DNA of 64,000 nt, from NCBI GenBank assembly GCA_963281255.1, contig OY725495.1, forward strand, positions 4,588,001 through 4,652,000, read 5' to 3'. Below the pieces are notes generated by a model. The model had not been told where the DNA came from. It searched no databases and worked only from the letters and a program-made list of their open reading frames with translations. The first letter of the stretch is position 1, and each line of letters opens with the position of its first letter. Source of the DNA: Aphrocallistes beatrix. Its lineage: Eukaryota; Porifera; Hexactinellida; Sceptrulophora; Aphrocallistidae. A program made the position numbers and the translations under genes. This document shows, piece by piece, positions 25,877-63,138 of this stretch.

Positions 25877-27055
25877 ATGGCTTCAAGATTCCCTGAGAGC
25901 GAACCTTCCCTCCATTCCAATCCATTTGAAAGAGCAGAACTCCTCATCAAATCCACCTTCAACTCCCTGATGAAGAAACTGGAAGAGAGGAGGGACCAGC
26001 TGCTGGTAGAGCTGCATGAGATGAGTGCTAACTACTTCAGCAAAGAGGAGACGAGACAGAAACAGATGAAGGATCTGGATCAGCTGATTGCAAAGATTCA
26101 AGAAGCGACTATTGAGCAGAATCTCATCGTCGACCTACAAGAACAACAAATTCAAAAGATGAAAAAGGAAAAGAGACAATTTCAAAAACCAACTCCTATC
26201 CCACTACCTCACTTCGACACATCTCTCCTGGAGGATCTACTACAAAAGATAGAGAAGTTTGGATCTCTACAAGATGTAGCTCCCATATACCGCACGAAAG
26301 TACATCCTATTAAGTCTATAGGCAAGTATAGGGAGGGTAGAATAGAACTACATGAGCCACGTGGTGTAGCAATTGATGGGAAAGGAAATATATTCATAGC
26401 TGACTTGGGGAACAGTATAATTCAGTTAATTAGCTTGGAGGGTCAGTTCATTAGAGAATTTGGCAATGAAGAGTTAAAATGGCCTCACGCCATAGCTCTA
26501 TACAATGATTGGTTGTTTGTAACTGATTTTAAACTGAATAAAGTACTAAAATATAAAACACAAAACTATAAATTAGAATGTAAGAGTGAGTTAGAATTTG
26601 ATTGTCCATTAGGTATAACAGTAGATAATAATGAAGTGTTTGTAGCAGATTGTTATAATAATAGAATAGTAGTGTTAAGCTTAGATCTAAAATTTATTAG
26701 AGAATTAGGTAATGAGAAGTTAGTAAAGCCAAGAGATGTTAAAGTAAATAATAATAAAGTGTTTGTAGCTGATAATGGTGAACATCATAATGTACATGTA
26801 TTTTCTAAGTTAGGAGATTTACTGAATAGTATTATAAACTTGAGAGTTGGAACTAGTTTTATGTTTCTATGTTTAGATAAGTTTAATAATATTCTAATTA
26901 GTGATAATTCAGGTAAAATAATTCAAATATACACATTAGATGGTCTGTTAATTCATAGTATTGAGTGTCATTATTATCCCACAGGAATAGCAGTAACTCA
27001 AAATAAAATTATTAATTGTTCTGATTTATATAATGGTGAATTAAACTTGTATTAG
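25877..27055 (+). CDS. NHL-propeller gene A1 (coiled coil + six NHL blades)
   Basis: 392 residues, intact. Residues about 18-105 form a TRIM-like coiled coil (KSTFNSLMKKLEERRDQLLV; QKQMKDLDQLIAKIQ). A proline-rich hinge (PTPIPLPHFDTS) follows, then six NHL blades from about residue 160: GVAIDGKGNIFIAD, IALYNDWLFVTD, GITVDNNEVFVAD, DVKVNNNKVFVAD, LCLDKFNNILISD and GIAVTQ. No RING, B-box, signal peptide or membrane segment, so it is probably cytosolic. Blade-edge residues (after AD; before P) differ from those of sister copies. The first third uses mixed codons; the propeller is extremely AT-rich. ATTAAA at 27101 is a likely poly(A) signal. The ligand is unknown; in other families NHL propellers bind RNA or protein. 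Confidence 0.88.
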   Translation: MASRFPESEPSLHSNPFERAELLIKSTFNSLMKKLEERRDQLLVELHEMSANYFSKEETRQKQMKDLDQLIAKIQEATIEQNLIVDLQEQQIQKMKKEKRQFQKPTPIPLPHFDTSLLEDLLQKIEKFGSLQDVAPIYRTKVHPIKSIGKYREGRIELHEPRGVAIDGKGNIFIADLGNSIIQLISLEGQFIREFGNEELKWPHAIALYNDWLFVTDFKLNKVLKYKTQNYKLECKSELEFDCPLGITVDNNEVFVADCYNNRIVVLSLDLKFIRELGNEKLVKPRDVKVNNNKVFVADNGEHHNVHVFSKLGDLLNSIINLRVGTSFMFLCLDKFNNILISDNSGKIIQIYTLDGLLIHSIECHYYPTGIAVTQNKIINCSDLYNGELNLY

Positions 27056-28950: not shown

Positions 28951-29902
28951 CATATCCTGCATCTTTTACATTGACTAAAACAACAGAAACTAAATCGTAT
29001 TTGGAAAATTTAGCTGAACTCTTCAAACACAGTCTCAATATACAATGATACTAGAAGCATAGACAATTTTTGTTCCTTTCTGTTCATTAGTATCTTATAT
29101 TTATTATTGTATTAGCAGCTGATTTAGAGGAATTATTAATCACTAATTTCATTTGTAATTATTTGCACAATGTATAAACTAGGCTAGCCAAGATTATACT
29201 CGAGTTAAACTGAATGGGGGTTAATCTGGGCTGCTACACTGGGACGAGCTTGAATGCCTAATTCTCGGAACGGGAGAGGATCATTCCTGAAAACTTTGTC
29301 AGTACATAATATGCGGGACGGGGCAAAATATCTAATTACACAGTTGTGTCGATTCAGTGTATTGTGGCACTTAGTTAGTTCTCCCTTTATTCACTAGACT
29401 ACGTATATTATATTTCAAGTAACTATGTATGTTATCCATTATATTCATATTCATTCTACAATTTCACAATATAATTACTACTATATAATTATTCTGGTAT
29501 AATGACTCTGCTTAATCAGAACACATTGGTTCTTGATACTTTGTCCCGATTATAGCGATAGTTATTTATAAACGGATCCGTGCTTAGCTTTATTTCATTA
29601 ACAATAATACTAACATTCATTAGAAATAGGAGTAGCATTAATCCAAGCTGACATACCACTATTTATTTATCAGACATAATTAAAATTCACTAAATGCATA
29701 AGTTTTCAATGAGAAGATTCCAATTTTTCAACAGTAACCTAAACCATGGATATAAATCGAATGTCCCAATCACCATAATTGTTCTATCACAACAATCCTA
29801 AATGCAAATCGAAAGCTGATCCCCTGAGCTATACAATGGACAAATCGAAAATAGTATATTTTCACTAACTTCTGAATACAGATCACGGATGAGTACTTAT
29901 GA
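28951..29902. other. Interval with no gene seen
   Basis: AT-rich. Around 29503-29565 there is a decayed half of the family 1 MITE (GACTCTGCTTAATCAG; TTTGTCCCGATTATAGCG). Nothing else recognised. Confidence 0.5.
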
Positions 29903-30409
29903 AAATATAAAACACAAAACTATAAATTAGAATGTAAGAGTGAGTTAGAACTTAATTGTCTATTAGGTATAACAGTAGATAATAATGAAGTGTTTGTAGC
30001 AGATTCTAATAATGATATAATAGTAGTGTTAAGCTTAGATCTTAAATTTATTAGAGAATCAGGAAATAAGAAGTTAGTAATGCCAAGCGATGTTAAAGTA
30101 AATAATAATAAAGTGTTTGTAGCTGATAATAGTAAACATCATAATGTACATGTATTTTCTAAGTTAGGAGATTTACTGAATAGTATTATAAACTTGAGAG
30201 ATGAAAATCTTGGTATATTTCTATGCTTTGATAAGTTTAATAATATTCTAATTAGTGATTGGTCAGCTAAAATACTACAAATATACACATTAGAAGGTCT
30301 GTTAATTCATAGTATTGAGTGTGGTTATAGACCGGCAGGAATAGCAGTAACTCAAGAAAATGTAATTTTTTCTGTTGATTATTCTAATCATAAATTAAAC
30401 TTGCATTAA
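29903..30409 (+). pseudogene. 5'-truncated NHL A copy
   Basis: Starts abruptly inside the second blade at KYKTQNYKLECKSELE and runs to the normal end (HKLNLH). It lacks promoter, coiled coil, hinge and the first blade. The remaining frame is open, and its blade-edge residues again differ from all other copies (SN after VAD; R before P; M before P). The sequence upstream of the break is unrelated. Confidence 0.8.
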
Positions 30410-32520: not shown

Positions 32521-32564
32521 CAATTATTGATTATATTTTCTTCTCCGTTTTTATAGTATTAGTG

Positions 32565-33497
32565 ATGGCGACTCCTGATATGAACGGGAATGAAGAAGTT
32601 ACAGATGAAACAGATAAGCTCGTTGTCAGTGAGTCTACTGCCGAAGTGCCTAGAATGCCTACAGTATCTTATAAGGGCAGATATATCCATAGTGTGAAAG
32701 TAGAGTTGATAAATTGTTTATTTCGATGTCCCAATGCAGTAGCAGTGGATTTCCTGTCTGGAAATATTTATGTAGCAGATGGATATGATGGAACATTCGT
32801 CTTTGATAATAATGGAATGAAATTGTTCCGTGTTTTGGTGGATACTAGAACGGCTTTTCATGAGTCTCTGTTTGCTTGTATTGTTATCTCAAGAAATAGA
32901 GTATTTATCACTCAGTATAAGTCTAGACGTGTATTAATTTTTAGTTTGGATGGAAACTTCATCACTCATTTTAAATTTCGTGAAATACATCGAGAGACCC
33001 TCGCAATTTGTTTTGCAGTCAGTGAAATGAACGGAGACATCTATGTCTGTGATACAATTCATCATAGAGTTCTGATATTCTCAAACGAGTCTCCAACATT
33101 GCAATCTTATTTTGGATCCGAAATAGTGAAACATCCTTGTGACGTCAAGGTTACTAACGAATTCATTTATGTATTTTCCGAAGAATTCTCGCCTAATCAG
33201 TACCTTCTACACTCTTTCACTCATGACTTCATTCCATCACAAACCATTCCTGTTCTTTCTATAGCCAAATACTTGAAATCTCCTCCTACCTTCTGTGTAG
33301 ATGGATCTGGTAACTTTTTTATTTATGATTGGGAAGAACGAGCTTTGGTTATTATCAATTGCCATGGTGAATTAGTTCAGACCACTCCTTATGACTTTCA
33401 ATGTCCCATCGGAATTACACTGGACGTAGAAGGTAGAATCCTACTTTTGTTTTGCGAAAGTTCACATATTACACGCCTCAATTATGAATACCCTTAA
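32565..33497 (+). CDS. NHL-propeller gene B1
   Basis: 310 residues from the ATG at 32565 (MATPDMNGNEEV). A short acidic N-terminus, then six NHL-type blades: NAVAVDFLSGNIYVAD, CIVISRNRVFITQ, CFAVSEMNGDIYVCD, CDVKVTNEFIYVFS, FCVDGSGNFFIYD and IGITLDVEGRILLL. No coiled coil, RING, signal peptide or membrane span. A pyrimidine tract and AG (GTTTTTATAG) end 9 bases before the ATG, so the start may follow a splice acceptor. Nearly identical to B3 in its last 93 codons and 3' flank, but with 17 substitutions before that. Ligand unknown. Confidence 0.85.
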   Translation: MATPDMNGNEEVTDETDKLVVSESTAEVPRMPTVSYKGRYIHSVKVELINCLFRCPNAVAVDFLSGNIYVADGYDGTFVFDNNGMKLFRVLVDTRTAFHESLFACIVISRNRVFITQYKSRRVLIFSLDGNFITHFKFREIHRETLAICFAVSEMNGDIYVCDTIHHRVLIFSNESPTLQSYFGSEIVKHPCDVKVTNEFIYVFSEEFSPNQYLLHSFTHDFIPSQTIPVLSIAKYLKSPPTFCVDGSGNFFIYDWEERALVIINCHGELVQTTPYDFQCPIGITLDVEGRILLLFCESSHITRLNYEYP

Positions 33498-34680: not shown

Positions 34681-34686
34681 TCCTGT

Positions 34687-34804
34687 TTCAAGGAAACTAG
34701 CCACAAACCTACCAGTCATTCCCTAATCAGTCTCTCCCTCTCACTACGACACAACATACACTATCAGCTCATGATACCAACACACTTCTCATCGTATAAA
34801 TATA
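34687..34804 (+). promoter_or_regulatory. Promoter of NHL gene A2
   Basis: TTCAAGGAA at 34687-34695 and TATAAATATA at 34795-34804, 60 bases before the ATG, as in the other A genes. Confidence 0.6.
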
Positions 34805-34854
34805 CACTCAGTAAACAATTCATTATTAACTCAAATAAAACAAAGAAACAATCA

Positions 34855-36035
34855 ATGGCTTCAAGATTCCTTGAGAGCGAACCTTCCCTCAATTCCAACC
34901 TATTTGAAAGAGCAGAACTCCTCATCAAATCCACCTTCAACTCCCTGATGAAGAAACTGGAAGAGAGGAGGGACCAGCTGCTGGTAGAGCTGCATGAGAT
35001 GAGTGCTAACTACTTCAGCAAAGAGGAGACGAGACAGAAACAGATGAAGGATCTGGATCAGCTGATTGCGAAGATACAAGATGCAACTATTGAGCAGAAT
35101 TTAATAGTCGACCTACAAAAACAACATATCGAGAAAACGAAAGAGAGGAAGGAAGAATTCCAAAAACCAACTCCTATCCCATTTCCCCACTTCGACACAT
35201 CTCTCCTGGAGGATCTACTACAAAAGATAGAGAAGTTTGGATCTCTACAAGATGTAGCTCCCGCATACCGCACGAAAGTACATCCAATTAGGTCTATAGG
35301 AAAGAAAGAGAAGGGTAGAGTAGAACTAAATGGTCCACGTGGTGTAGCAATAGATGGGAAAGGAACTATATTCATAGCTGACATGTGGAACAGTAGAATT
35401 CAGTTAGTTAGCTTGGAGGGTCAGTTCATTAGAGAATTTGGTAAGAGAGAATTAATTTGGCCTCACTCCATAGCTCTATACAATGATTGGTTATTTGTAA
35501 CTGATTTTAATGTGAATAAAGTCCTAAAATATAAAACACAAACTATAAATTAGAATGTAAGAGTGAGTTAGAACTTAATTATCCATTTGGTATAACAGTA
35601 GATAATAATGAAGTGTTTGTAGCAGATTATTATAATAATAGAATAGTAGTGTTAAGCTTAGATCTTAAATTTATTAGAGAATTAGGAAATAAGAAGTTAG
35701 TAAAGCCACAAGATGTTAAAGTAAATAATAATAAAGTGATTGTAGCTGATAATAGTAAACATCATAATATACATATATTTTCTAAGTTAGGAGATTTACT
35801 GAATAGTATTATAAACTTGAGAGGTGGAGGAACTGATCGGATATTTCTATGTTTAGATAAGTTTAATAATATTCTAATTAGTGATTGGTCAGGTAAAATA
35901 GTACAAATATACACATTAGAAGGTCTGTTAATTCATAGTATTGAGTGTGATTATGAACCTACAGGAATAGCAGTAACTCAAGATAATATTATTATTTGTG
36001 TTGATATAGATAATAGTAAATTAAACTTGTATTAG
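34855..36035 (+). pseudogene. NHL-propeller gene A2, 1-base frameshift
   Basis: The start, coiled coil, hinge and first two blades are intact. At about 35539 the sequence ACACAAACT has one A fewer than ACACAAAACT of the sister copies; the frame then stops within a few codons. The rest (open from 35613) continues the propeller to LNLY and the usual end. One extra codon is present (LRGGGT). The defect is in a short A run, so a base-calling error is possible. Otherwise it would encode 393 residues. Confidence 0.85.
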
Positions 36036-38010: not shown

Positions 38011-38022
38011 GTAGTATTAGTG

Positions 38023-38952
38023 ATGGCAACTCCTGATATGAACGTGAATGAAAAAGTTACAGATGAAACAGGTATGCTCGTTGTCAGTGAGTCTACTGCC
38101 GAAGTGCCTAGAATTCCTACAATATCTTATGAGGGCAGATATATCCATAGTGTGAGTGTATGTTTGAGAGAATGCATTTTTAAATACCCAAAAGCAGTAG
38201 CAGTGGACTTCCTGTCTGGGAATATTTATGCATCTGATGGATTTTATGGAGTGTTCGTATATAACAATGATGGAAGGTATTTGTACGATTTTGGAGAGGA
38301 GTTTAGAGTGAAGATGGATGGTCCTCGTTGTATGGTTATCTCAGGAAATAGAGTATTTATAACTCAGTTTAGGTCCTATTGTGTGTTAATTTATAGTTTG
38401 GATGGAAACTTCATCACTCAGTTTGAATGTGCGACTATATGTTCTAATGAAATACAAGATTACACCCCCGCACTTTGTTTTGCAGTCAGTGAAATGAACG
38501 GAGACATCTATGTCTGTGATACAAACCATCATAAAGTTCTGATATTCTCAAACGAGTTTCCAACATTGCAATATCATTTTGGAACCGGAATAGTGAAGTA
38601 TCCATTTGACGTCAGAGTTACTAACGAGTTCATTTATGTGTTTTCAAACGTTTCCTCGTCGAAGCAATTCCTACACTCTTTCACTCATGACTTCATTCCA
38701 TCTCAAAACATTCCTCTTCTCTCTATTGCCAGACACTTGAAATCTCCTCTTACCTTCTGTGTAGATGGATCTGGTAACTTTGCTATCTATGATAGGAATG
38801 AACGAGCTTTAGTTATTATTAACCGTCACGGTGAATTAGTGCAGTCTACTCCTTATGACTTTGAAAGTCCAATTGGAATTACACTGGACTTAGAAGGTAG
38901 AATACTACTTGTATCCGCACATCGAAATGTTGGACGCTTCCATAAAGATTAA
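38023..38952 (+). CDS. NHL-propeller gene B2
   Basis: 309 residues, intact. Same layout as B1: a short N-terminus (MATPDMNVNEKV), then blades including KAVAVDFLSGNIYASD, CMVISGNRVFITQ, CFAVSEMNGDIYVCD, FDVRVTNEFIYVFS, FCVDGSGNFAIYD and IGITLDLEGRILLV. It differs from B1 and B3 in the first two blades and the C-terminal tail (SAHRNVGRFHKD), and is closest to broken B4. An AG acceptor-like site (GTTTTTGTAG) lies 9 bases before the ATG. Confidence 0.85.
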   Translation: MATPDMNVNEKVTDETGMLVVSESTAEVPRIPTISYEGRYIHSVSVCLRECIFKYPKAVAVDFLSGNIYASDGFYGVFVYNNDGRYLYDFGEEFRVKMDGPRCMVISGNRVFITQFRSYCVLIYSLDGNFITQFECATICSNEIQDYTPALCFAVSEMNGDIYVCDTNHHKVLIFSNEFPTLQYHFGTGIVKYPFDVRVTNEFIYVFSNVSSSKQFLHSFTHDFIPSQNIPLLSIARHLKSPLTFCVDGSGNFAIYDRNERALVIINRHGELVQSTPYDFESPIGITLDLEGRILLVSAHRNVGRFHKD

Positions 38953-39956: not shown

Positions 39957-41135
39957 ATGGCAGCTAAATATCCACAGGAAATACCAGAACTTGAAACTGA
40001 ATCATTGGATACTGTTGAAATATCCGTAAGGAAGACATTCAACTCTCTGATACAGCAACTGATAGAGAGGAGGGACCGACTGATTAAGCAGATTTGCAAG
40101 ATAAGAAATGAATATAACCTCAAAGAAACAGAGCGAACTGAATATCTTGAAAGCATTGAAAAACAGATCAGAGAGATGAAAGAGAAGAACGCTGATCACC
40201 CCTTTTCAAAAATAGACAAATAGACGATTAAATACTGGACGGCACAGAAAGAGGAATGCAAACACCCGAATCCCATCCCTATGCCTCCTCGCTTCGACAC
40301 ATCTCATCTTGACGAGCTACGAGATCAGATAGAGAGGTTTGGAGAACAAGACAAATCAACTCAAATATACACCTCCAAATTAGGCCCTTTTACGTCTATA
40401 GGCAAGAAAGGTAGAGGTAAAGTAGAACTAGTTGATCCACGTGGTGTAGCGATAGATGGGAAAGGGAATATATTCATTGCTGACAAGGGGAACAGTAGAT
40501 TTCAGGTAGTTAGCTTGGAGGGTCAGTTCATTGAAGAATTTGGTAAGGGAGAGTTAAGTGAGCCTTACTCCATAGCTCTATACAACGATTGGTTGTTTGC
40601 AACAGATTGTAATCTGCATAAAGTCCTAAAATATAAAACACAAAACTATAAATTAGAATGTGAGAGTAAGTTAAAACTTCATAGGCCATTTGGTATTACA
40701 GTAGATAATAATGAAGTGTTTGTAGCAGATTGTCTTAATAATAGAATAGTAGTATTAAACTTAGATCTAAAATTTATTAGAGCAATAGGAAATAAGAAGT
40801 TAGTAAAGCCAAGAGATGTTAAAGTAAATAATAATAAAGTGTTTGTAGCTGATAGTAGTGAACATCATAATGTACATGTATTTTCTAAGTTAGGAGATTT
40901 ACTGAATAGTATTATAAACTTGAGAGATGGAACTAGTTTTATATTTCTATGTTTAGATAAGTTTAATAATATTCTAATTAGTGATTGTTTAGGTAAAATA
41001 ATACAAATATACACATTAGAAGGTCTGTTAATTCATAGTATTAAGTGTGATTATTGTCCCAAAGGAATAGCAGTAACTCAAGATAATATTATTATTTGTG
41101 TTGAGTTTTTTAATGGTAAATTGAACTTATATTAG
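39957..41135 (+). pseudogene. NHL-propeller gene A' (divergent), single in-frame TAG
   Basis: Frame and length (1,179 bases) equal those of the intact A genes, but TAG at 40221-40223 interrupts it after residue 88, beside a short direct duplication (AAATAGACAAATAGAC). N-terminus MAAKYPQEIPELETESLD; the coiled coil (FNSLIQQLIERRDRLIKQI) is diverged, while the propeller from about 40380 matches the A family closely (GVAIDGKGNIFIADKGNSRF). It lacks the A-type TATA promoter. The N-terminal part and the propeller seem to have different histories, as after gene conversion. A methionine at 40281 could start a 284-residue product without the coiled coil. Confidence 0.8.
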
Positions 41136-44060: not shown

Positions 44061-44068
44061 TATTAGTG

Positions 44069-44995
44069 ATGGCAACTCCTGATATGAACCTGAATGAAGA
44101 AGTTACAGATGAAACAGGTAAGCTCGCTGTCAGTGAGTCTACTGCCGAAGTGCCTAGAATGCCTACAGTATCTTATGAGGGCAGATATATCCATAGTGTG
44201 AGAGTAGAGTTGATAAATTGTTTATTTCGATGTCCCAATGCAGTAGCAGTGGATTTCCTGTCTGGAAATATTTATGTAGCAGATGGATATGATGGAATAT
44301 TCGTCTTTGATAATAATGGAATGGAATTGTTCGATGTTTTGGTGGATACTAGAACGATTTTTCATGAGTCTCTGTTTGCTTGTATTGTTATCTCAAGAAA
44401 TAGAATATTTATCACTCAGTATAAGTCTAGACGTGTATTAATTTTTAGTTTGGATGGAAACTTCATCACTCATTTTAAATTTCGTGAAATACATCGAGAG
44501 ACCCTCGCAATTTGTTTTGCAGTCAGTGAAATGAACGGAGACATCTATGTCTGTGATACACTTCATCATAGAGTTCTGATATTCTCAAACGAGTCTCCAA
44601 AATTGCAATCTTATTTTGGAATAGTGAAACATCCTTGTGACGTCAGAATTACTGACGAATTCATTTATGTATTTTCCGAAGAATTCTCGCCTAATCAGTA
44701 CATTGTACACTCTTTCACTCATGACTTCATTCCATCACAAACCATTCCTGTTCTTTCTATAGCCAAATACTTGAAATCTCCTCCTACCTTCTGTGTAGAT
44801 GGATCTGGTAACTTTTTTATTTATGATTGGGAAGAACGAGCTTTGGTTATTATCAATTGCCATGGTGAATTAGTTCAGACCACTCCTTATGACTTTCAAT
44901 GTCCCATCGGAATTACACTGGACGTAGAAGGTAGAATCCTACTTTTGTTTTGCGAAAGTTCACATATTACACGCCTCAATTATGAATACCCTTAA
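44069..44995 (+). CDS. NHL-propeller gene B3
   Basis: 308 residues, intact. Sister of B1 by an 11.5-kb duplication. It lacks two residues (SE after SYFG) and differs from B1 at 17 other positions, all before about codon 217. The six blades are as in B1. The replaced residues fall mainly between or at the edges of blade cores (for example T/I and K/E in the first blade region, R/D and A/I in the next). Acceptor-like AG 9 bases before the ATG. Confidence 0.85.
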   Translation: MATPDMNLNEEVTDETGKLAVSESTAEVPRMPTVSYEGRYIHSVRVELINCLFRCPNAVAVDFLSGNIYVADGYDGIFVFDNNGMELFDVLVDTRTIFHESLFACIVISRNRIFITQYKSRRVLIFSLDGNFITHFKFREIHRETLAICFAVSEMNGDIYVCDTLHHRVLIFSNESPKLQSYFGIVKHPCDVRITDEFIYVFSEEFSPNQYIVHSFTHDFIPSQTIPVLSIAKYLKSPPTFCVDGSGNFFIYDWEERALVIINCHGELVQTTPYDFQCPIGITLDVEGRILLLFCESSHITRLNYEYP

Positions 44996-46360: not shown

Positions 46361-47569
46361 ATGGCTTCAAGATTTCCTGAGAGCGAACCTTCCATCAATT
46401 CCAACCCATTCGAAAGAGCAGAACTCCTCATCAAATCCACCTTCAACTCCCTGATGAAGAAACTGGAAGAGAGGATGGACCAGCTGCTGGTAGAGCTGCA
46501 TGAGATGAGTGCTAACTACTTCAGCAAAGAGGAGACGAGACAGAAACAGATAAAGGATCTGGATCAGCTGATTGTAAAGATTCAAGAGGCGACTATTGAG
46601 CAGAATTTAATAGTCGACTTACAAAAACAACATATTGAGAAGGCGAAAGAGAAGAAGGAAGAATTCCAACAACCAACTCCTATCCCACTTCCCCACCTCG
46701 ACACACCTCTCCTGGAGGATCTGCTACAAAAGATAGAGAAGTTTGGATCTCTACAAGATGTAGCTCCCATATACCGCACGAAAGTACATCCTATTAGGTC
46801 TATAGGCAAGTATGGGAAGGGTAGAGAACTAAATGGTCCATATGGTGTAGCGATAGATGGGAAAGGAAATATATTCATAGCTGACATGTGGAACAGTAGA
46901 ATTCAGTTGGTTAGCTTGGAGAGTCAGTTCATTAGAGAATTTGGCAAGAAAGAGTTAAGTTGGCCTTACTCCATAGCTCTATACGATGATTGGTTGTTTG
47001 TAACTGACTTAGATCTGCATAAAGTCCTAAAATATAAAAGACAAAACTATAAATTAGAATGTAAGAGTGAGTTAAAATTTAATCGTCCATTAGGTATAAC
47101 AGTAGATAATAATGAAGTGTTTGTAGCAGATTGTTGTAATAATAGAATAGTAGTGTTAAGCTTAGATCTTAAATTTATTAGAGAATTAGGAAATAAGAAG
47201 TTAGTAGACCCACAAGATGTTAAAGTAAATAATAATAAAGTATTTGTAGCTGATAATAGTGAACATCATAATGTACATGTATTTACTAAGTTAGGAGATT
47301 TACTGAATAGTATTATAAACTTGAGAGATGGAACTGATGATATATTTCTATGTTTAGATAAGTTTAATAATATTCTAATTAGTGATTGGTCAGGTAAAAT
47401 GATACAAATATACACATTAGAAGGTCTGTTAATTCATAGTATTGAGTGTCATTATTTTCCTACAGGAATAGCAGTAACTCAAGATAATATTATTATTTGT
47501 GTTGATTATTCTAATAATAAATTAAACTTGTATTATATTATATTATTTATTTATGATTTAATTTTGTAG
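46361..47569 (+). CDS. NHL-propeller gene A3, stop codon lost
   Basis: 402 residues. Full coiled coil, hinge and six blades. The usual ending LNLY-stop has changed from TAG to TAT, adding a hydrophobic tail (YIILFIYDLIL) read from the old 3' flank. Two codons are missing before the first blade (GRELNGP in place of GRVELNGP-type sequence). Blade-edge residues include MW after IAD, CC after VAD, D before P in the fourth blade and F before P in the last. A TATA promoter is present, so expression is plausible. Confidence 0.85.
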   Translation: MASRFPESEPSINSNPFERAELLIKSTFNSLMKKLEERMDQLLVELHEMSANYFSKEETRQKQIKDLDQLIVKIQEATIEQNLIVDLQKQHIEKAKEKKEEFQQPTPIPLPHLDTPLLEDLLQKIEKFGSLQDVAPIYRTKVHPIRSIGKYGKGRELNGPYGVAIDGKGNIFIADMWNSRIQLVSLESQFIREFGKKELSWPYSIALYDDWLFVTDLDLHKVLKYKRQNYKLECKSELKFNRPLGITVDNNEVFVADCCNNRIVVLSLDLKFIRELGNKKLVDPQDVKVNNNKVFVADNSEHHNVHVFTKLGDLLNSIINLRDGTDDIFLCLDKFNNILISDWSGKMIQIYTLEGLLIHSIECHYFPTGIAVTQDNIIICVDYSNNKLNLYYIILFIYDLIL

Positions 47570-49647: not shown

Positions 49648-51012
49648 ATGGCGACTCCTGATATGAACGTGAATGAAAAAGTTACAGACGAAACAGGTAA
49701 GCTCGTTGTCAGTGAGTCTACTGCCGAAGTGCCTAGAATTCCTACAGTATCTTATGAGGGCAGATACAGGGACGGATCCAGGATTTCACGAAAGGGGGGG
49801 CCCAAAGCAAGTGGAACGAGCGACTCTTGGGGGGTCTGGGGGTTCTCCCTCCACAAAATTCTTTGAATAATTATATTAAAACCCATATCGAATGACCATT
49901 TGCATATACTATACAAGATTCATAATATTTTTTAGTATGTAATACTGTGCCACTGTATTACCACTAGAGACTGAAAACTAGCAGCTGCTGATGGCTAGCA
50001 CTCACTCTCATCACCTGCGTTATCTAATAGATTTCTTAACTTCATCAAGCGTGGTCTTTTGATGGCAAACCGATCTACAATCTCAGAATACGTGAGATTA
50101 ATGTCTTTGTGGACATAAAGAAGAATTAAATCATTTAATCGTTCTTCACCCATTGAGCTACGGAGTTCCGTCTTTACATATGCCAGGGCAGAATTGGCCC
50201 TCTCAACAGTAGCAGACGTCACTGGTGCTACTAACAAAAGGTCGATGTTTTTCTAGATTGCCTTTCTAGATTGGCCTAAAGAAAATGGGGCCCCCAAATA
50301 TGTAACAAGGAATATACTACTACGAGAACGAGTGCATTAGGCTAGTTCTCGAAGGGGGGCCCAGGCCCCCTGGGCCCCCCCTGGATCCGCCAATGAGAAC
50401 GAGTGCATTAGGCTAGTCCTCGAAGGGGGGGCCCAGGCCCCCTGGGCCCCCCCCTGGATCCGCCTATGAGAACGAGTGCATTAGGCTAGTCCTCGAAGGG
50501 GGGCCCAGGCCCCCTGGCCCCCCCCCTGGATCCGCCTATGAGATACATCCATAGTGTAAGCGAATATTTGAGAGAATGCATATTTAAATACGCAAAAGCA
50601 GTACGTAGCAGTGGACTTTCTGTCTGGGAATATTTATGCATCTGATGGATTTGATGGAGTGTTCGTATATGACAATGATGGAAGGTATTTGTACGATTTT
50701 GGGGAGGAGTTTAGAGTGAAGATGGATGGTCCTCGTTGTATGGTTATCTCAGGAAATAGAGTATTTATAACTCAGTTTAGGTCCTATTGTGTGTTAATTT
50801 ATAGTTTGGATGGAAACTTCATCACTCAGTTTGAATGTGCGTCTATATGTTCTAATGAAATACATGATTACACCCCTGCACTTTGTTTTGCAGTCAGTGA
50901 AATGAACGGAGACATCTATGCCTGTGATACACATCATCATATAGTTCTGGTTGTAGTGTTCTATCACGGGTGTGGCACAGACTTCACAGGTTCACTGTTC
51001 AATATCAGCTAA
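49648..51012 (+). pseudogene. NHL-propeller gene B4, broken by a hAT element
   Basis: Starts like B2 (MATPDMNVNEKV) and runs to EGRY, where a 774-base element interrupts it (49767-50540). B homology resumes at IHSV, a 4-base insertion near 50600 (CAGTACGTAGCAG) shifts the frame, and blades 1-3 follow to about 50946. There the gene is cut and joined to GTTGTAGTGTTCTATC, and then to the upstream region of an A gene. Blades 4-6 are missing. Clearly dead, by at least three separate lesions. Confidence 0.85.
49767..50540. mobile_element. hAT-family element with transposase remnant
   Basis: Ends CAGGGACGGATCCAGG and CCTGGATCCGCCTATG are imperfect inverted repeats. AGATA is present on both sides. 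The minus strand 49995-50237 encodes a hAT C-terminal dimerisation segment (SATVERANSALAYVKTELRS; EERLNDLILLYVHKDI). The right part holds three tandem ~72-bp units (GAACGAGTGCATTAGGCTAG followed by a C/G-rich palindrome). Most of the transposase is missing. Confidence 0.8.
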
Positions 51013-51727: not shown

Positions 51728-52906
51728 ATGGCATCAAGATTCCCTGAGAGCGAACCTTCCCTCCATTCCAACCCATTTGAAAGAGCAGAACTCCTCATCA
51801 AATCCACCTTCAACTCCCTGATGAAGAAACTGGAAGAGAGGATGGACCAGTTGCTGGTAGAGCTGCATGAGATGAGTGCTAACTACTTCAGCAAAGAGGA
51901 GACGAGACAGAAACAGATGAAGGATCTGGATCAGCTGATTGCGAAGATTCAAGAGGCGAGTTTAGAGCAGAATCTCATAGTCGATCTACAAAAACAACAA
52001 ATTCAAAAGATGAAAAATGAAAAGGGACAATTTCAACAACCAACTCCCATCCCATTTCCTCACTTCGACACATCTCTCTTGGAGGATCTACTTCAACAGA
52101 TAGAGAAGTTTGGATCTCTACAAGATGTAGCTCCCATATACCGCACGAAAGTACATCCTATTAGGTCTATAGGAAAGAAAGGGAAGGGTAGAGTAGAACT
52201 AAGTGGTCCACGTGGTGTAGCGATAGATGGGAAAGGAACTATATTCATAGCTGACATGTGGAACAGTAGAATTCAGTTAGTTAACTTGAAGGGTCAGTTC
52301 ATTAAAGAATTTGGTAAGGAAGAGTTAATTTGGCCTCACTCCATAGCTCTATACAACGATTGGTTGTTCGTAACTGATTTAGATCTGAATAAAGTCCTAA
52401 AATATACAACACAAAACTATAAATTAGAATGTAAGAGTGAGTTAGAACTTGATTATCCATTTGGTATAACAGTAGATAATAATGAAGTGTTTGTAGCAGA
52501 TTATAATAATAATAGAATAGTAATGTTAAGCTTAAATCTTAAATTTATTAGAGAATTAGGAAATGAGAAGTTAGTAAAGCCACAAGATGTTAAAGTAAAT
52601 AATAATAAAGTGTTTGTAGCTGATAATAGTGAACATCATAATATACATATATTTTCTAAGTTAGGAGATTTACTGAATAGTATTATAAGCTTGAGAGTTG
52701 GAACTGGTGATATATTTCTATGTTTAGATAAGTTTAATAATATTCTAATTAGTGATTGGTCAGGTAAAATAATACAAATATATACATTAGAAGGTCTGTT
52801 AATTCATAGTATTGAGTGTGATTATAAACCTACAGGAATAGCAGTAACTCAAGATAATATCATTATTTGTGCTGATTGGAGTAGCGATAAATTAAACTTG
52901 TATTAG
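51728..52906 (+). CDS. NHL-propeller gene A4
   Basis: 392 residues, intact. Coiled coil, hinge PTPIPFPHFDTS and six blades as in A1. Variable sites: MW after the first IAD, YN after VAD, WS after ISD, K before P in the last blade, VGTGD in the fifth. The second blade has Y before P (ELDYPFGI). Conserved TATA promoter and an ATTAAA poly(A) signal about 50 bases after the stop. It is one of three copies with neither a nonsense nor a frame defect. Confidence 0.88.
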   Translation: MASRFPESEPSLHSNPFERAELLIKSTFNSLMKKLEERMDQLLVELHEMSANYFSKEETRQKQMKDLDQLIAKIQEASLEQNLIVDLQKQQIQKMKNEKGQFQQPTPIPFPHFDTSLLEDLLQQIEKFGSLQDVAPIYRTKVHPIRSIGKKGKGRVELSGPRGVAIDGKGTIFIADMWNSRIQLVNLKGQFIKEFGKEELIWPHSIALYNDWLFVTDLDLNKVLKYTTQNYKLECKSELELDYPFGITVDNNEVFVADYNNNRIVMLSLNLKFIRELGNEKLVKPQDVKVNNNKVFVADNSEHHNIHIFSKLGDLLNSIISLRVGTGDIFLCLDKFNNILISDWSGKIIQIYTLEGLLIHSIECDYKPTGIAVTQDNIIICADWSSDKLNLY

Positions 52907-58100: not shown

Positions 58101-58178
58101 AAAATTACCAAATCAGCTGACGGAGTCCGTGTCAATTATACGCCCACTGTAGCTGGAGAGTATTCTGTTGAAACCAAG
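55178..58178 (+). CDS. N-terminal adhesion-motif exons (1-3) of the filamin-repeat protein
   Basis: Exon 1 (55178-55382) holds the first LD-like helix and FPPPPP site. Exon 2 (56447-56761) has PDLPPPPSQ, a basic Gly/Ser/Ala stretch and SVSALKRQFETG, a short amphipathic segment I cannot assign. Exon 3 (57748-58178) holds the second LD helix and FPPPPP site, then the beginning of the first filamin repeat (GISGAIPAKVGTWFQVSG; YTPTVAGEYSVET). The LD plus FPPPPP pair is therefore repeated. Confidence 0.75.
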
Positions 58179-61100
58179 GTTTGTTTGTTTGTTTGTTTGT
58201 TTGTTTGTTTGTTGGTTGGTTGGTTGGTTGGTTGGTTTTGGTTGGTTAATTTTTATTTATTTAGTTATTTATTTCCAGAAATTGATATTGATCTATTTTA
58301 GAAAGAGTTCTAAATTTAGGTTGGTGGTCAGCACATTCCAGGATCTCCCTTCATTGTTACGGTGGATTTCGCGGAATTCACAGACAAATGCACAGCTGAT
58401 GGAATGGGACTAATCAGCGGAAAAACAGGTTTGACTTTCATTCCAGAATTGTTTGATTGCGAATCAAATGCGTAGCTTTTGATTGGAGAGTCGAATTATA
58501 CAATTGATATCTATAAATTATTTACAAGCGTATTTGGTATACTGGCGCGGCGTACTTGACCTGTCAACACCTTTTTTCTGTTGAGTCACCCTTTGGGTAC
58601 CTAGAGATATCAGAGAGTTTAGAGGTGTTTACTGTTAATTTATTTCACCATTGCCTAATTAAATCTAGCCTCACTGTAAAATAACTAATTTGGACCAAGG
58701 ACGAGGATATCTTGAACCGATCAAAATTGATAATTTCGGATCATTGTGGTTATATACTAAAAATGGCGCTAGATTTTTGCTAGCTCATTTCTGATTAAGT
58801 CATTTTAGGCGGGGAAACAGAAGTGCGGGGTATTTGTTTTAAATAAAAATGACCCCAGGTAATTTTTAATTAGAGTCGCTACAGTCTATTTTCTGACGAG
58901 CTAATGACCTATTTAAAATCCATAAACTGTGTTCCTAGAGCTTCATTCACTCACTAAATACCTGTGGATTTATTGAGAGTTTCATCCAACATATTATCAA
59001 TGTGATTACATTGATTCATAAGTTTGAGTATATTTTATTAAAATTGCTATTGTGGGACAAAGTCACCTCTTGGGGCCAAAATCGTCCCAGTTTACGGTAT
59101 AATGATCAGAACTGTCCCGCTTATCCTTACTATTAAAACTCGATTAATGTTTGTGTATATATACATTATCACATTTTTAAAAGTTAAGCAATACAGTTAT
59201 TCGAGCATAACTCAGCCATTATAAAGATTTGCTAATAGAGTTCAACTGTATTGTCTGAATAGGAGAAGCTAGCAGCTTCGTGATTCGCTGTGGACCCGAT
59301 GCAGTCGTTGCTAGGCTGAGAGTGCACATACTCGGACCGAGCAAGGCAGAGCCAATCGAAATGAGTGAAGAGGATAAGATCATTAACGTCACTTACCACC
59401 CCACTTCTCCGGGACAGTACAGGATCAAGATCATATGGGCAGAAGCACATATCGCAGGTATGTGTGGTGTTTTTGTTTGTTTGTTTACTATGTTTACTGG
59501 GTATACTAACAATGTTTGTTTGTTTTTTTAATATTTTTTGAGTTATCTGTTATGATATAATAACATCCATGGTCCAAGAATACATTTGAGTAAAGATAGC
59601 TTGCAACAGCTCTAATCGTCATTAAGATTAGAGAGGATGTGGCCCTATAAATTTGCATAATTATTCAAACTTTAATGAATTCTAAATATAATCAAAATAT
59701 GATATTAAAGTAGAGAGCATTGAAAGTAATTTCTGAGTATAAAAGCAAATTCCACAAGGAGATATCCTTTCAGAGACATGACACACTCCTGCTTCAGGGA
59801 ATCTAGCCACAAACCTACCAGTCATTCTCTAATCAGTCTCTCCCTCTCACTACGACACAACACACACTATCAGCTCATGATACCAACACACTTCTCATCT
59901 GATATAAATATACACTCAGTAAACAATTCATTATTAACTACAATATAAGAACGAAACAATCAATGGCTTCAAGATTCCCTGAGAGCGAACCTTCCCTCCA
60001 TTCCAACCCATTTGAGAGAGCAGAACTCCTCATCAAATCCACCTTCAACTCCCTGATGAAGAAACTGGAAGAGAGGAGGGACCAGCTGCTGGTAGAGCTG
60101 CATGAGATGAGTGCTAACTACTTCAGCAAAGAGGAGACGAGACAGAAACAGATGAAGGATCTGGATCAGCTGATTGCAAAGATACAAGAGGCGACAATAG
60201 AACAGAACCTCATAGTCGACCTACAAGAACAGGAAATTCAAAAGATGCAGAAACGGAAAGAAAAATTTCAACAACCAACTCCTATCCCACTTCCTCACTT
60301 CGACACATCTCTCCTGGAGGATCTGCTACAAAAGATAGAGAAGTTTGGATCTCTACAAGATGTAGCTCCCATATACCGCACGAAAGTACATCCTATTAGG
60401 TCTATAGGCAAGGAAGGGAAGGGTAGAGTAGAACTAGATCATCCACGTGGTGTAGCAATAGATGGGAAAGGAAATATATTCATAGCTGACACAGGGAACG
60501 GTAGAATTCAGTTAGTTAGCTTGGAGGGTCAGTTCATTGGAGAATTTGGTAAGAAAGAGTTAGGTATTCCTTACTCCATAGCTCTATACAATGATTGGTT
60601 GTTAGTAACTGATTTAGATCTGAGTAAAGTCCTAAAATATAAAACACAAAACTATAAATTAGAATGTAAAAGTGAGTTAAAACTTAATATGTCATTAGGT
60701 ATAACAGTAGATAATAATGAAGTGTTTGTAGCAGATTGTAAAAATAATAGAATAGTAGTGTTAAGCTTAGATCTTAAATTAATTAGAGAATTAGGAAATA
60801 AGAAGTTAGTACAGCCAAGTGATGTTAAAGTAAATAATAATAAAGTGTTTGTAGCTGATAGTAGTAAACATCATAATGTACATGTATTTTCTAAGTTAGG
60901 AGATTTACTGAATAGTATTATAAACTTGAGAGATGGAACTGGTGATATATTTCTATGTTTAGATAAGTTTAATAATATTCTAATTAGTGATATGTTAGGT
61001 CAAATACTACAAATATACACATTAGAAGGTCTGTTAATTCATAGTATTGAGTGTGATTATGGACCTACAGGAATAGCAGTAACTCAAGATAATATTATTA

Positions 61101-63138
61101 TTTGTGTTGATTTTTCTAATAGTAAATTAAACCTGTATTAGATTTTATTGTTTATTCATTCTTTAATTTTGTAATTGTTTTTATCTATTAAATATTGCTA
61201 CTAGTATATATCTTATTTTCATCAATCTACATAAAAATATTTAATATGATTTATTAATGAGTGAAATTGAAATTATTACATTAAAACAATAAAACCAAAA
61301 TCTTAGTTTATATATTTTTTGTTTCTAACGTACTGAGTCGATGTGTTTTCGAAAAAAACTCAACCTTTACTGTACAATAATGTCTGACGGTAGACCGATA
61401 GTATCGTACTGCTCCTCTAGGATGCCAATTTGATGCGTTATCTTCTGTTAATTCATTAATAACAAATTTGAATGTTGTCCATGGTTTAGTCAATACAAAT
61501 ATTTGTCAACTCCAATCGTTACTTCTCTAGTCGCACAATCTTGTGCTGTAGCTTATATGAGTCCTTAAAACTTGTGTCTAATATCATAACTTCTTGATTT
61601 ACAGGGTTGCCGTGGGAATGGGAATCTGTGGGTATTCCCATATGGGATGGGAATGGGAATGACTTTAAGCCTATGGGTATTCCCACATGTGGGTTCTGTG
61701 TGGTTTTCTATGGGATACTGTGGTTTTCTATGGGATACTGTAGTTTTCTATGGGATACTGTGGTTTTCTATGGGATACTGTAGTTTTCTATGGGATACTG
61801 TGGTTTTTTGTGGGATACTGTAGTTTTCTATGGGATACTGTGGTTTTCTATGGGATACTGTGGGTTTTTGTGGGATACTGTGGTTTTCTATGGGATACTG
61901 TAGTTTTCTATGGGATACTGTGGTTTTTTGTGGGATACTGTAGTTTTCTATGGGATACTGTGGTTTTCTATGGGATACTGTGGGTTTTTGTGGGATACTG
62001 TGGTTTTCTATGGGATACTGTAGTTTTCTATGGGATACTGTGGTTTTTTGTGGGATACTGTAGTTTTCTATGGGATACTGTGGTTTTCTATGGGATACTG
62101 TGGGTTTTTGTGGGATACTGTGGTTTTCTATGGGATACTGTAGTTTTCTATGGGATACTGTGGTTTTTTGTGGGATACTGTAGTTTTCTATGGGATACTG
62201 TGGTTTTCTATGGGATACTGTGGGTTTTTGTGGGATACTGTGGTTTTCTATGGGATACTGTGGGTTTTTGTGGGATACTGTGGTTTTCTATGGGATACTG
62301 TGGGTTTTTGTGAGTATTCCCACAGAAATCCTGTGGGAATGGGATGGGTATTGAAATTCCATTCCCACGGCAACCCTGTTGATTTGCTTCATTCTAGGAT
62401 CTCCTTTTCTGGTGAATGTGAGTGGAGAAGCAATAAATGATCTCTCCAAGTTAAAGGTAGAAGGAGAAGGTCTAAAAGGAGGAAATACCAATGAGCCATT
62501 GCGTATCCAGGTTGTGCCTGAGACTGGAGCTGGTGCTGGACCGTTATCCATCAAAATAGCAGGTCCCACCAAACCCAGTATAGTGGCAGAGGAAGCAGAA
62601 GACTCTAGCATCACAGTCACCTACACTTGCAGGTAGTATGAGGGATGATGGAGATTGTATAATACTCAAATTTCATTGGTCAATTACATGTTGTCTCCTT
62701 TCTCGGAGAGGTGTGAGCTTTTTGTTTTATAAACAAATAAATCCTTCCCCCAGTCTAAAATTGGTTCAATTTTCGTCAATATGATTCCTACCATCGCGTC
62801 CGTTTAATTCCAGACAAGCAGACAAACAAACAAACAAACAAACAAACAAAAATAAACAAACAAACAAGCCTTCGAGATTTAATTATATAGTCAATTATTT
62901 ATTATTTAGTATTATTGAAAAATATATTCATGAAAAAGTGATTGATTCTCATTTCTATGCTATTTATAGAGACCCAGGACAGTATGACATCCATCTGAGA
63001 TGGGGCAACGATGACATTCCAGGCTTCCCAATGGGAGTTAAGGTGGTGGGGGAAGGGAGAGTGTCAGATGGCAGTTTATGTACCGCACACGGAGAAGGAA
63101 TGGTACAAGGAGAAGTGAACCATCCAGCTGAGTTTGAA
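55178..63138 (+). CDS. LD-motif / FPPPP / filamin-repeat scaffold protein (7 exons seen; continues past the window)
   Basis: Predicted exons: 55178-55382, 56447-56761, 57748-58178, 58320-58428, 59263-59457, 62398-62632, 62970-63138. All phases agree (1,659 nt, 553 codons), and the last ends at a GTGAGT donor, so more lies downstream. The N-terminal half is disordered and proline-rich. It has a LD-like helix (TEELLAQLERIG) plus SDFPPPPPLP, and later a strong LD motif (SLDDLLSDLNQ) plus TDFPPPPPMA. Filamin-type Ig repeats follow, with the family marks PGSPFIVTVDF, TSPGQYRIKI, AGSPFLVNVSG and DPGQYDIHLRW. LD motifs bind focal-adhesion partners in paxillin; DFPPPP is the Ena/VASP EVH1 ligand; filamin repeats bind adhesion receptors. 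No actin-binding CH domain is seen. ATG 55178 directly follows an acceptor (TTTTCTCAG), so exon 1 could be internal. An NHL gene and a satellite transposon lie in intron 59458-62397. Confidence 0.82.
55508..55712. mobile_element. CATACATGCCAAC-family repeat in intron 1
   Basis: TACTTGCCAACTGTCCCG at the left, GGCTCAGGTTGGTTTGTATG at the right, with GCGTCCCGCCATGTCCCACG inside. Confidence 0.7.
56920..57010. mobile_element. Foldback element with 9-bp target duplication (MULE-like)
   Basis: GCATGCCTAATTTACGGGAC at the left and GTCCCGTAAATTAGGTATGC at the right, with a further inner copy. CCCTCCAGA flanks it on both sides (56911-56919 and 57011-57019). A 9-bp duplication is typical of Mutator-like elements. 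Confidence 0.75.
57316..57531. mobile_element. ~215-bp palindromic foldback element
   Basis: Two arms of about 100 bases meet at ATGCCTAATTTACGAAATAT and its complement. Arms contain CTAATTTACGGAACTCGAC and CGGTTCCGG. It shares the CTAATTTACGG motif with the element at 56920. Confidence 0.75.
58179..58245 (+). repeat. (GTTT)n/(GGTT)n microsatellite beginning at a filamin-gene 5' splice site
   Basis: Exon 3 ends AACCAAG and the array starts with the donor GT, as at talin positions 8230 and 15932. The intron is only 141 bases. Confidence 0.9.
59030..59100. repeat. Half copy of the long-TIR MITE of 16885-17126
   Basis: ATTGCTATTGTGGGACAAAG and AAGTCACCTCTTGGGGCC, ending TTTACGGTA. One arm only. 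Confidence 0.8.
59793..59912 (+). promoter_or_regulatory. Promoter of NHL gene A5
   Basis: TTCAGGGAA at 59793-59801 and TATAAATATA at 59903-59912, 60 bases before the ATG. The promoter is inside a filamin-gene intron. Confidence 0.6.
59963..61141 (+). CDS. NHL-propeller gene A5, nested in a filamin-gene intron
   Basis: 392 residues, intact, same strand as its host. Coiled coil, hinge and six blades as in A1. Variable sites: TG after the first IAD, IP in place of WP before the second blade, M before S in the third blade (LNMSLGI, losing the usual P), CK after VAD, Q before P in the fourth, ML after ISD, G before P in the sixth. It has its own TATA promoter, so it is likely transcribed independently of the host. 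The flanking region and next host exon were duplicated to or from 25.6-27.7 kb. Confidence 0.88.
   Translation: MASRFPESEPSLHSNPFERAELLIKSTFNSLMKKLEERRDQLLVELHEMSANYFSKEETRQKQMKDLDQLIAKIQEATIEQNLIVDLQEQEIQKMQKRKEKFQQPTPIPLPHFDTSLLEDLLQKIEKFGSLQDVAPIYRTKVHPIRSIGKEGKGRVELDHPRGVAIDGKGNIFIADTGNGRIQLVSLEGQFIGEFGKKELGIPYSIALYNDWLLVTDLDLSKVLKYKTQNYKLECKSELKLNMSLGITVDNNEVFVADCKNNRIVVLSLDLKLIRELGNKKLVQPSDVKVNNNKVFVADSSKHHNVHVFSKLGDLLNSIINLRDGTGDIFLCLDKFNNILISDMLGQILQIYTLEGLLIHSIECDYGPTGIAVTQDNIIICVDFSNSKLNLY
61602..62378. mobile_element. hAT-type MITE filled with a 20-bp satellite
   Basis: Ends CAGGGTTGCCGTGGGAATGG and CATTCCCACGGCAACCCTG are inverted repeats. The flanks TTGATTTA (61594-61601) and TTGATTTG (62379-62386) are an 8-base target duplication with one mismatch. 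The paralogous site at 27444-27451 (TTGAGTTG) is empty. The interior is the tandem array described separately. The right end lies 19 bases before the acceptor of the next filamin-gene exon. Confidence 0.88.
61690..62322. repeat. 20-bp satellite with a 120-bp higher-order repeat
   Basis: Monomer TGGGATACTGTGGTTTTCTA with variants TAG, GGG and TTTTTG. Six monomers in a fixed order form a 120-bp unit repeated about four times (for example from 61801, 61921, 62041, 62161). The 187-codon open frame across it is a by-product of the array. Confidence 0.92.
62817..62866. repeat. (CAAA)n microsatellite
   Basis: About a dozen CAAA units in the intron before exon 62970-63138. Confidence 0.9.

Follow-up and report, generated by a model that had tools for sequence, protein, structure and literature searches.

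One face of the NHL propellers of a glass sponge is under diversifying selection: a possible germline-encoded recognition repertoire

In the glass sponge Aphrocallistes beatrix, diversifying selection acts on the codons of a defined register of the NHL propeller in several separate paralogue groups, and purifying selection acts elsewhere. We give a probability of roughly 0.6 to the reading that these genes form a repertoire of recognition proteins which are encoded in the germline and act inside the cell, working like the fungal HNWD propellers or the fish finTRIMs. The pattern, a frame which is kept and one face under strong selection, is as expected for inherited recognition proteins, here on a scaffold better known from the control of development. 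We infer a ligand and an immune role for the NHL propellers.

The NHL genes of the window and their relatives

The window, i.e. the whole stretch of 64,000 nucleotides that was analysed, holds group A (NHL-A) and group B (NHL-B) sequences (Table 1). The cox1 of this sponge shows 95% identity to that of Aphrocallistes vastus. All seven NHL-A copies counted in a preliminary description of this DNA are present, but only four are intact genes (those starting at 25877, 46361, 51728 and 59963), the other three being broken. Unlike the other window copies, copy 4 has its A-type propeller joined to the N-terminal part of another subfamily. The codon pairs listed after VAD (TGTTAT, TCTAAT, TATTAT, TGTCTT, TGTTGT, TATAAT and TGTAAA) and the residues listed before the proline of the last blade (Y, R, E, C, F, K and G) were found as described. 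The same was true of the framework sequence said to be common to all copies, the 20-mer GATAATAATGAAGTGTTTGT, which was present with zero mismatches in 7/7 window copies (at 26624, 29978, 35601, 40704, 47105, 52475 and 60710); with up to 3 mismatches, 14 matches were obtained versus a mean of 0.02 after shuffling. Variation does occur over the interval 25877-61141 to which it had been assigned, but its extent is far larger, two genome searches with different queries having returned 107 and 128 matches in A. beatrix. Several family copies are broken, an observation which counts against reading the family as a recognition repertoire.

Table 1. Features of the window (Aphrocallistes beatrix OY725495.1).
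Feature	Coordinates	Strand	Remarks
NHL-A copy 1	25877..27055	+	intact, 392 aa; locus L006
NHL-A copy 2	29902..30409	+	broken, 3' half only; end counted by hand
NHL-B gene	32562..33497	+	NHL propeller protein, 311 aa
NHL-A copy 3	34855..36035	+	broken, frameshift near 35550; ends counted by hand
NHL-B gene	38020..38952	+	128 genome matches when used as query
NHL-A copy 4	39957..41135	+	broken, in-frame TAG, mosaic; locus L017
NHL-B gene	44066..44995	+	
NHL-A copy 5	46361..47569	+	intact, displaced stop, 402 aa; locus L004
NHL-B fragment	50541..50949	+	
NHL-A copy 6	51728..52906	+	intact, 392 aa; locus L005
Upstream block of NHL-A copy 7	59650..59962	+	also retained beside group-A genes of other contigs
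NHL-A copy 7	59963..61141	+	intact, 392 aa; locus L001; numbering reference
Propeller coding part of NHL-A copy 7, codons 141-385	60383..61117	+	holds the 30-codon variable register

Codon n of NHL-A copy 7 starts at 59963+3(n-1). In this numbering, the variable register comprises six sets of five codons: 159, 160, 162, 177 and 178; 201, 202, 204, 218 and 219; 242, 243, 245, 259 and 260; 283, 284, 286, 300 and 301; 326, 327, 329, 344 and 345; and 366, 367, 369, 384 and 385.

A group-A gene consists of a single exon encoding a long alpha-helical N-terminus followed by an NHL propeller, which has six blades like that of TRIM-NHL proteins. In the AlphaFold model of NHL-A copy 7 (mean pLDDT 90.6), helices are found at residues 16-76 and 82-102, and the helical N-terminus of group A is probably a dimerising coiled coil. 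The relatives with solved structures are mRNA or developmental regulators and not immune proteins, according to the accessible portions of their sources, a point against the recognition reading. Neither RING nor B-box was detected in Pfam scans of five group A/C proteins of the genome and two database relatives, and group A has no space for an upstream coding exon because a TATA box lies about 60 bp before the ATG. The B30.2 domain was absent from the Pfam scans, which gave NHL instead; NOD domain and WD40 repeats were not found, NHL repeats being all that exceeded the Pfam cut-off in group A. Inspection of the protein by eye and of the AlphaFold model showed no signal peptide or membrane segment.

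The block upstream of group-A genes is conserved in 13/13 copies and contains, in addition to the TATA box, TTCNNNGAA about 170 bp before the ATG. A promoter motif common to all groups was rejected, TTCNNNGAA being present in 13/13 upstream regions of group A, 0/8 of group B and 0/4 of group D; it was found in 1/8 of the group C upstream regions examined, at a different place. Retroposition as the copy mechanism was also rejected, since the copied unit takes in about 250-400 bp 5' of the ATG including the TATA box. The whole-gene tree was rejected at P < 0.05 for 5/7 segments in group A and 4/7 in group C, and the copies are mosaics.

Selection on the register codons

Codon tests were performed on samples of copies from each cluster. 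Group A was represented by 13 of 24 extracted loci, after exclusion of L014, whose end differs, and of 10 loci with less than 75% identity to copy 7. The codon sets also lack L009, L016, L017 and L027-L029, which contain stops or are partial matches, as well as the three window copies that are broken. Group B comprised 8 of 20 loci, the remainder being more diverged or truncated (L032), group C all 14 C6 loci (the six C17 loci stood outside the selection tests), group E 20/20 loci, and group F 17/20, L120 having been dropped by length and L130 and L131 belonging to another cluster. Two sets of database proteins were also assembled, one of 45 (45/47 of P0028-P0074, 386-396 residues, P0041 and P0057 dropped) and one of 68 C-like proteins (68/80 of P0281-P0360, 405-415 residues, minus P0340 and P0356).

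Codon models M1a and M2a were run in our own Python implementation, with branch lengths fixed in proportion. On the whole-gene tree of the 13 intact group-A paralogues, M2a was favoured over M1a with a 2dlnL of 215, 7% of codons being at an omega of 5.8; the corresponding values were 331 for group C (14 copies) and 105 for group B (8 copies). Recombination inflates this test: eight null simulations with mosaic ancestry, made with group-A settings only and analysed on one tree, gave 2dlnL from 3.7 to 19.6. When recombination was controlled by using one tree per segment, M2a was still favoured, with 2dlnL of 113 (A), 225 (C) and 64 (B), as well as 117 in group F (17 copies) and 78.5 in group E (20 copies). 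The register was enriched in positive sites, with P = 3e-11 for the 13 copies of group A. Without any tree, pN/pS in the register was 1.93 [1.44-2.65] in A, 1.37 [1.02-1.96] in C and 1.79 [1.22-3.14] in B, against 0.50, 0.31 and 0.42, respectively, in the propeller outside it. The diversifying selection proposed in the preliminary description for these kinds of site is thus borne out by segment trees, null simulations and tree-free counts.

Two other proposals did not hold. Silent change is not near zero in group A, where pS reached 0.153 at propeller codons not belonging to the register and 0.246 at N-terminal codons, and homogenisation is not needed to keep the framework, the low pN of 0.076 at those propeller codons corresponding to ordinary purifying selection. 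Outside the register, sites above 0.9 were found in the N-terminal part at codons 73 and 124 in group A (only 124 with segment trees), with 2 in C and 1 in B. Group E gave a significant M2a test yet just 2 sites above 0.9, and in group F, as judged by eye, 10/22 sites were located outside the register, 4 of these being N-terminal.

Position and make-up of the variable face

On the whole tree, 20/22 positive propeller sites fell in d-a or b-c loops, one at P+1 and one on the other side; with segment trees (15 sites), 12 were in these loops, 2 at P+1 and 1 on the other side. The positive site on the opposite side is 357. Strand order in the AlphaFold model, together with known propeller topology, places the d-a and b-c loops on the same side. 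In this model the selected sites cluster on one propeller face, as had been proposed, and this is the side where LIN41 and Brat bind RNA. Every register was unique within its own set (13/13, 8/8, 14/14 and 45/45), with 58-69% differing positions in registers versus 10-16% in frameworks. Registers are enriched in Tyr, Trp, Ser, Arg and Cys, more weakly in Asn, and depleted in Lys; enrichment in Tyr, Trp, Ser, Arg, Cys and Asn is what antibody-like binding sites typically show.

Variation at these positions recurs in the 45 database proteins (best own-genome identity 45.5-51.9%) and in the 68 C-like ones (49.2-56.1%). Three of these proteins compared with the whole A. beatrix genome gave best identities of 53, 52 and 56%; since neither set exceeds 56% identity to any own-genome copy with which it was compared, both probably come from other species. 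Of the database proteins P0001-P0026, which best match own-genome copies, 14/26 showed 100% identity to such a copy across the alignment, 10 of them at full length. In 8 pairs picked for differing, 11/46 propeller differences fell in the register versus 5.5 expected (P = 0.017). This allelic evidence is weak, the pairs having been preselected for differing, some of them possibly being paralogues, and 14/26 of the proteins P0001-P0026 being identical to an own-genome copy.

Alternative explanations and known recognition systems

An explanation by relaxed constraint on surface loops or by a local mutation hotspot there, combined with recombination artefacts in the tests, appears very improbable. 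Recombination is indeed present, as seen from the rejected tree segments, and register pS is mildly raised (0.266 versus 0.151 elsewhere in group C), so that some local mutational effect may add to register variation. However, in groups A, C and B register pS was just 1.2-1.8 times that of the remaining propeller when pN was 5-8 times higher, a pattern beyond a mutation hotspot alone, and neither a hotspot nor template-directed mutagenesis was retained as the whole cause. A pure recombination artefact was likewise rejected: the segment-tree 2dlnL of 64-225 is far above the simulated null, pN/pS exceeds 1 without any tree, and the opposite-side loops show pN/pS of only 0.56 (A), 0.26 (C) and 0.25 (B) with low entropy.

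The propellers might instead be sequence- or shape-specific RNA binders of TRIM-NHL type, whose paralogues diversified for cellular, viral or transposon RNAs via the face used by LIN41 and Brat; we hold this to be possible but rather doubtful. The best structure matches were Thin, LIN41/TRIM71, TRIM2/3 and Brat, and the RNA contacts named in the accessible text of the structural sources (DrLIN41 14/14, Brat 3/3) map onto the selected registers (P-2, P-1, P+1, D+1 or D+2). A phosphate-binding face should nevertheless be basic, while the 30 register residues are depleted in Lys, though enriched in Arg, and have a net charge from -6 to +5 with group means of -0.2 to +0.8; this charge argues against one uniform RNA-backbone ligand. 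Furthermore, LIN41 keeps its contact residues, the majority being identical between species in the portion available of PMC5908797. Allorecognition, in which propellers or their complexes would tell self from non-self at sponge contact or fusion, seems improbable to us. It would agree with the high diversity between copies, some of it between assemblies of the same or very close species, and with the HNWD propellers, of the same logic, which include heterokaryon-incompatibility genes (PMC4986451, accessible part). A protein with no visible signal peptide or membrane segment would, however, need to act post-fusion, and the 14/26 identical database proteins indicate low allelic diversity, unless both assemblies derive from one individual.

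For the germline recognition repertoire that we favour, the helical part would pair two propellers, allowing cooperative binding, and the variable face would bind ligands that change, most likely viral or microbial proteins in the cytoplasm. The set would be renewed by duplication, recombination and selection. As a syncytial animal has no cell borders to stop intracellular infection, such a repertoire would be valuable to it.

TRIM-NHL proteins are few conserved genes; in contrast to LIN41/TRIM71, Brat, Thin and TRIM2/3, the present set is expanded and hypervariable, and RING and B-box were not found in it. Lamprey VLRs carry hypervariable recognition residues on a conserved LRR scaffold and are assembled somatically, whereas complete germline ORFs exist for this family, on a propeller; the likeness to VLRs suggested beforehand applies only in the sense of a germline repertoire and no further. 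Tachylectin-2 is also a propeller. The tachylectin-2-like protein of a coral is a positively selected recognition protein and putative lectin of a non-bilaterian, which the available portion of PMC2880987 does not describe as an intracellular multigene repertoire. According to the accessible text of PMC4986451, the HNWD/NWD NLRs of Podospora anserina have a WD40 propeller with four positions per repeat positively selected on the interaction face, conserved repeats and exchange among family members. The likeness is that in each blade positive selection acts on a few hypervariable positions of the interaction face; HNWD, however, has WD40 within a NOD receptor and diversity among the repeats of one gene, whereas here an NHL propeller with only a helical N-terminal part varies among many short genes. 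Fish finTRIMs and primate TRIM5alpha combine a coiled coil and a C-terminal recognition domain with expansion and M2a/M8-selected ligand-loop sites (PMC2657112, in the part available). They share with the sponge genes the gene expansion and the concentration of positive selection in ligand-face loops, but carry B30.2, RING and B-boxes where we found NHL and detected neither RING nor B-boxes.

No title found in the literature searched, which missed most subscription journals, has an NHL repertoire in sponges as its subject; in the accessible text of the genome papers, NHL is mentioned 0 times for A. vastus, as are NHL and TRIM for Oopsacas minuta. Whether hundreds of germline NHL-propeller genes in glass sponges form an intracellular, paratope-like immune repertoire, and so an independent animal recognition system, is in our estimation evenly balanced. 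It is an open question by what means early-branching animals, which lack antibodies, recognise the diversity of their antagonists. Here the register of a conserved propeller places about 30 positions round one face, and it is mainly this face that selection has varied among natural sets of paralogues. Ligand hunting thereby becomes directly testable, and the paralogue sets are a natural library in which a stable scaffold presents different binding faces. Our results suggest that NHL, a fold known from RNA recognition during development, was taken up for diversifying recognition, and in a syncytial sponge they also suggest that defence inside the cell is an important layer.

Codon selection and ancestry of the NHL genes

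The codons and residues given in the preliminary description for the NHL-A genes, which encode a helical N-terminus and a six-blade NHL propeller, were every one confirmed as written. Its core idea, a variable repertoire on a propeller scaffold, stood, but its argument from near-zero silent change did not: silent change was ordinary in 13 intact group-A paralogues (pS 0.153 in the propeller once the register of variable codons described below is set aside, and 0.246 in the N-terminal part). With a pN of 0.076 for the conserved frame of the propeller in these paralogues, the group-A framework is conserved through purifying selection.

Codon models were compared on these 13 copies (contigs C9, C3, C4, C13 and C14; at least 75% identity to copy 7, an intact NHL-A gene of the window). 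M0 gave an omega of 0.62 and, on the whole-gene tree, M2a was favoured over M1a with a 2dlnL of 215, omega being 0.21 for 68% of codons and 5.8 for 7%. The whole-gene tree was rejected (P < 0.05) by five of seven segments, a count biased towards rejection because the best segment tree was picked from the same data; group-A ancestry is mosaic. The diversifying selection claimed earlier held under recombination control, since a separate tree for each of the seven segments still gave a 2dlnL of 113. Simulations of mosaic ancestry without positive selection (eight data sets, group-A settings, one tree) yielded 3.7-19.6, indicating that recombination inflates the test, yet far below the observed value. 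In agreement with group A, segment trees favoured M2a in four other paralogue groups of the same genome: C (2dlnL 225; 14 copies, contig C6), B (64; 8 copies, contigs C1 and C14), F (117; 17 copies, contig C3) and E (78.5; 20 copies, contig C12).

The variable side of the propeller

A 30-codon register was drawn up from the conserved Pro and Asp anchors, though after the group-A segment-tree sites had been seen; it comprises P-2, P-1, P+1, D+1 and D+2 in each of the six blades, and was set by alignment in blade 5, which has no Pro. It holds 15 of the 22 group-A propeller sites above 0.9 on the whole tree (P = 3e-11) and 12 of 15 with segment trees, as well as 12/16 sites in group C (P = 3e-10; three of the other four are insertions relative to A) and 4/5 in group B (P = 8e-4). 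Group E had just two sites above 0.9, both at D+1/D+2, and of the 22 sites of group F, assigned by eye, the register holds 12 and a d-a loop another, with four N-terminal and five elsewhere. N-terminal codons above 0.9 in group A were 73 and 124 on the whole tree, and 124 alone with segment trees.

In propeller topology, the d-a and b-c loops lie on one side. When the variable sites were placed on a structure model, as the preliminary description had envisaged, 20 of the 22 whole-tree sites of group A fell in these loops by the predicted strands, the remaining ones being 204, at P+1, and 357, in an other-side loop; of the 15 segment-tree sites 12 did so, leaving 204 and 369 at P+1, plus 357. 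Mean entropy in group A was 1.11 in d-a/b-c loops, 0.42 in other-side loops and 0.34 in strands, and the two loop classes ranked alike in groups B, C and S. Tree-free pN/pS in the register was 1.93 [1.44-2.65] for A, 1.37 [1.02-1.96] for C and 1.79 [1.22-3.14] for B, and 0.56, 0.26 and 0.25, respectively, in other-side loops. On the predicted model, diversifying selection is thus confined mainly to one propeller side.

Extent, copying and surroundings of the genes

Genome searches, fragments included, returned at least 107 matches with copy 7, at least 128 with an NHL-B gene (by eye, no place in common with the copy-7 search) and at least 101 with a group-C gene, some also found with copy 7. 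NHL-B relatives form large clusters on contigs C12 (3.8-4.3 Mb), C3 and C2, and sampled C12 and C3 copies also display the hypervariable pattern. In 15 group-C relatives on contigs C1, C12 and C15, the match begins only at residue 79-80 and an in-frame TAG, possibly a stop they share or part of a read-through intron, is present in all 15 (E 1e-121 to 2e-105).

The same positions vary in 45 database proteins 43-49% identical to copy 7, with a rank correlation of 0.56 between their propeller entropy and that of group A. Among 68 C-like proteins, mean entropy was 2.42 in the register versus 0.83, and the register takes 21 of the top 30 sites. Best identities to 104 own-genome proteins were 45.5-51.9% (the 45) and 49.2-56.1% (the 68), and three of these proteins reached 53, 52 and 56% against the whole genome; both sets therefore very likely come from other species. 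One C-like protein (51%) is named Oopsacas minuta, another glass sponge.

Of 26 further database proteins, 20 were 97-100% identical to an own-genome copy, 14 of the 26 being 100% identical over the aligned length, which shows that this species or a very close one has been assembled a second time. Across eight differing pairs, the register has 11 of 46 propeller differences, with 5.5 expected (P = 0.017), which is modest within-species evidence for register variation. For one of these proteins (P0005, 361 aa), this genome has an interrupted counterpart, whose closest pieces (95% and 89%) are two fragments that overlap, at C9:4678 kb.

Across contigs, group-A copies have in common a conserved block that takes in about 250-400 bp 5' of the ATG and includes a TATA box near -60, and their homology mostly stops within about 150 bp 3' of the stop codon. 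Upstream sequence copied along with the gene speaks for DNA-level duplication, and constraint on the block suggests that group-A genes are in use. Within this block, TTCNNNGAA lies about 170 bp before the ATG in 13/13 group-A upstream regions (e.g. window 59650-59962), and was not found in the examined upstream regions of groups B and D; its half-sites agree with the STAT consensus.

Neighbouring features of the NHL-A genes (window positions)
Feature	Position	Strand	Remarks
Coiled-coil/NHL gene	5056-6322 (5056-5610 + 5534-6322)		two overlapping frames
346-aa protein	23866-24906	minus	signal-peptide-like start by eye
NHL-B genes	32562-33497, 38020-38952, 44066-44995		interleaved with NHL-A
Segmental duplication	32444-36789 + 43930-48339		4.4 kb, 93% identity; one NHL-B and one NHL-A each
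Piece of filamin-repeat gene	57675-58301		Pfam Filamin
Minisatellite	61699-62308		60-bp units, about 10 copies; 3' of NHL-A copy 7

The coiled-coil/NHL gene is possibly frameshifted or spliced. One NHL-A of the segmental duplication is frameshifted and the other intact. A Pfam scan of the 346-aa protein gave no match, and the minisatellite yields a repetitive 187-aa ORF that is probably spurious.

Possible ligands and function

The available text of PMC5908797 names 14 RNA-contacting residues of zebrafish LIN41, ten also with human numbers. Placed on human TRIM71 chain 7qrx (numbering 590-868) and checked by hand, these ten carried the expected letters, as did the other four by the same shift of 44, and all 14 lie at register positions: P-2 (1), P-1 (4), P+1 (2), D+1 (3) and D+2 (4). 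The Brat RNA contacts R875, F916 and N933, as given in the available part of PMC13245067, correspond to P+1, P-1 and D+1. Selection in the sponge therefore acts on positions where these NHL domains touch ligands, and the propellers may have diversified towards RNA targets, a possibility that we consider rather unlikely. Tyr makes up 10-14% of the register versus 1-3%, Trp, Ser, Arg and Cys are also abundant, Lys, Glu and aliphatics are scarce, and individual registers carry net charges between -6 and +5, averaging about zero in each group. This composition probably resembles a general protein-binding surface more than a phosphate-binding one. A repertoire serving allorecognition appears improbable. 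That the register variation is neutral or artefactual we hold to be very improbable.

Beyond the architecture, one-side diversifying selection, mosaic ancestry and expansion of the NHL genes, which our data demonstrate, a defence role is proposed as the most probable reading, in which the helical parts would pair propellers, the proteins, in which no signal or membrane segment was seen by eye, would reside in the cytoplasm and the variable face would bind ligands that evolve. The mode of working would be alike in fungal HNWD propellers and finTRIM B30.2 loops, as far as the available texts describe them (PMC4986451 and PMC2657112, respectively). The sponge proteins are members of neither family, having no NOD or WD40 and no B30.2, and are not TRIM by domain content, because Pfam scans of five group-A/C proteins and two database relatives found neither RING nor B-box. 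In the available text of PMC10282587, the A. vastus genome holds another single-exon expansion, of AIG1-domain genes, and a section heading of PMC10280926 terms O. minuta a syncytial sponge; a syncytial body may be linked to intracellular defence. The signal in the NHL repertoire is real, strong and large-scale, and the repertoire would be a known kind of system on a new scaffold and in a new lineage.
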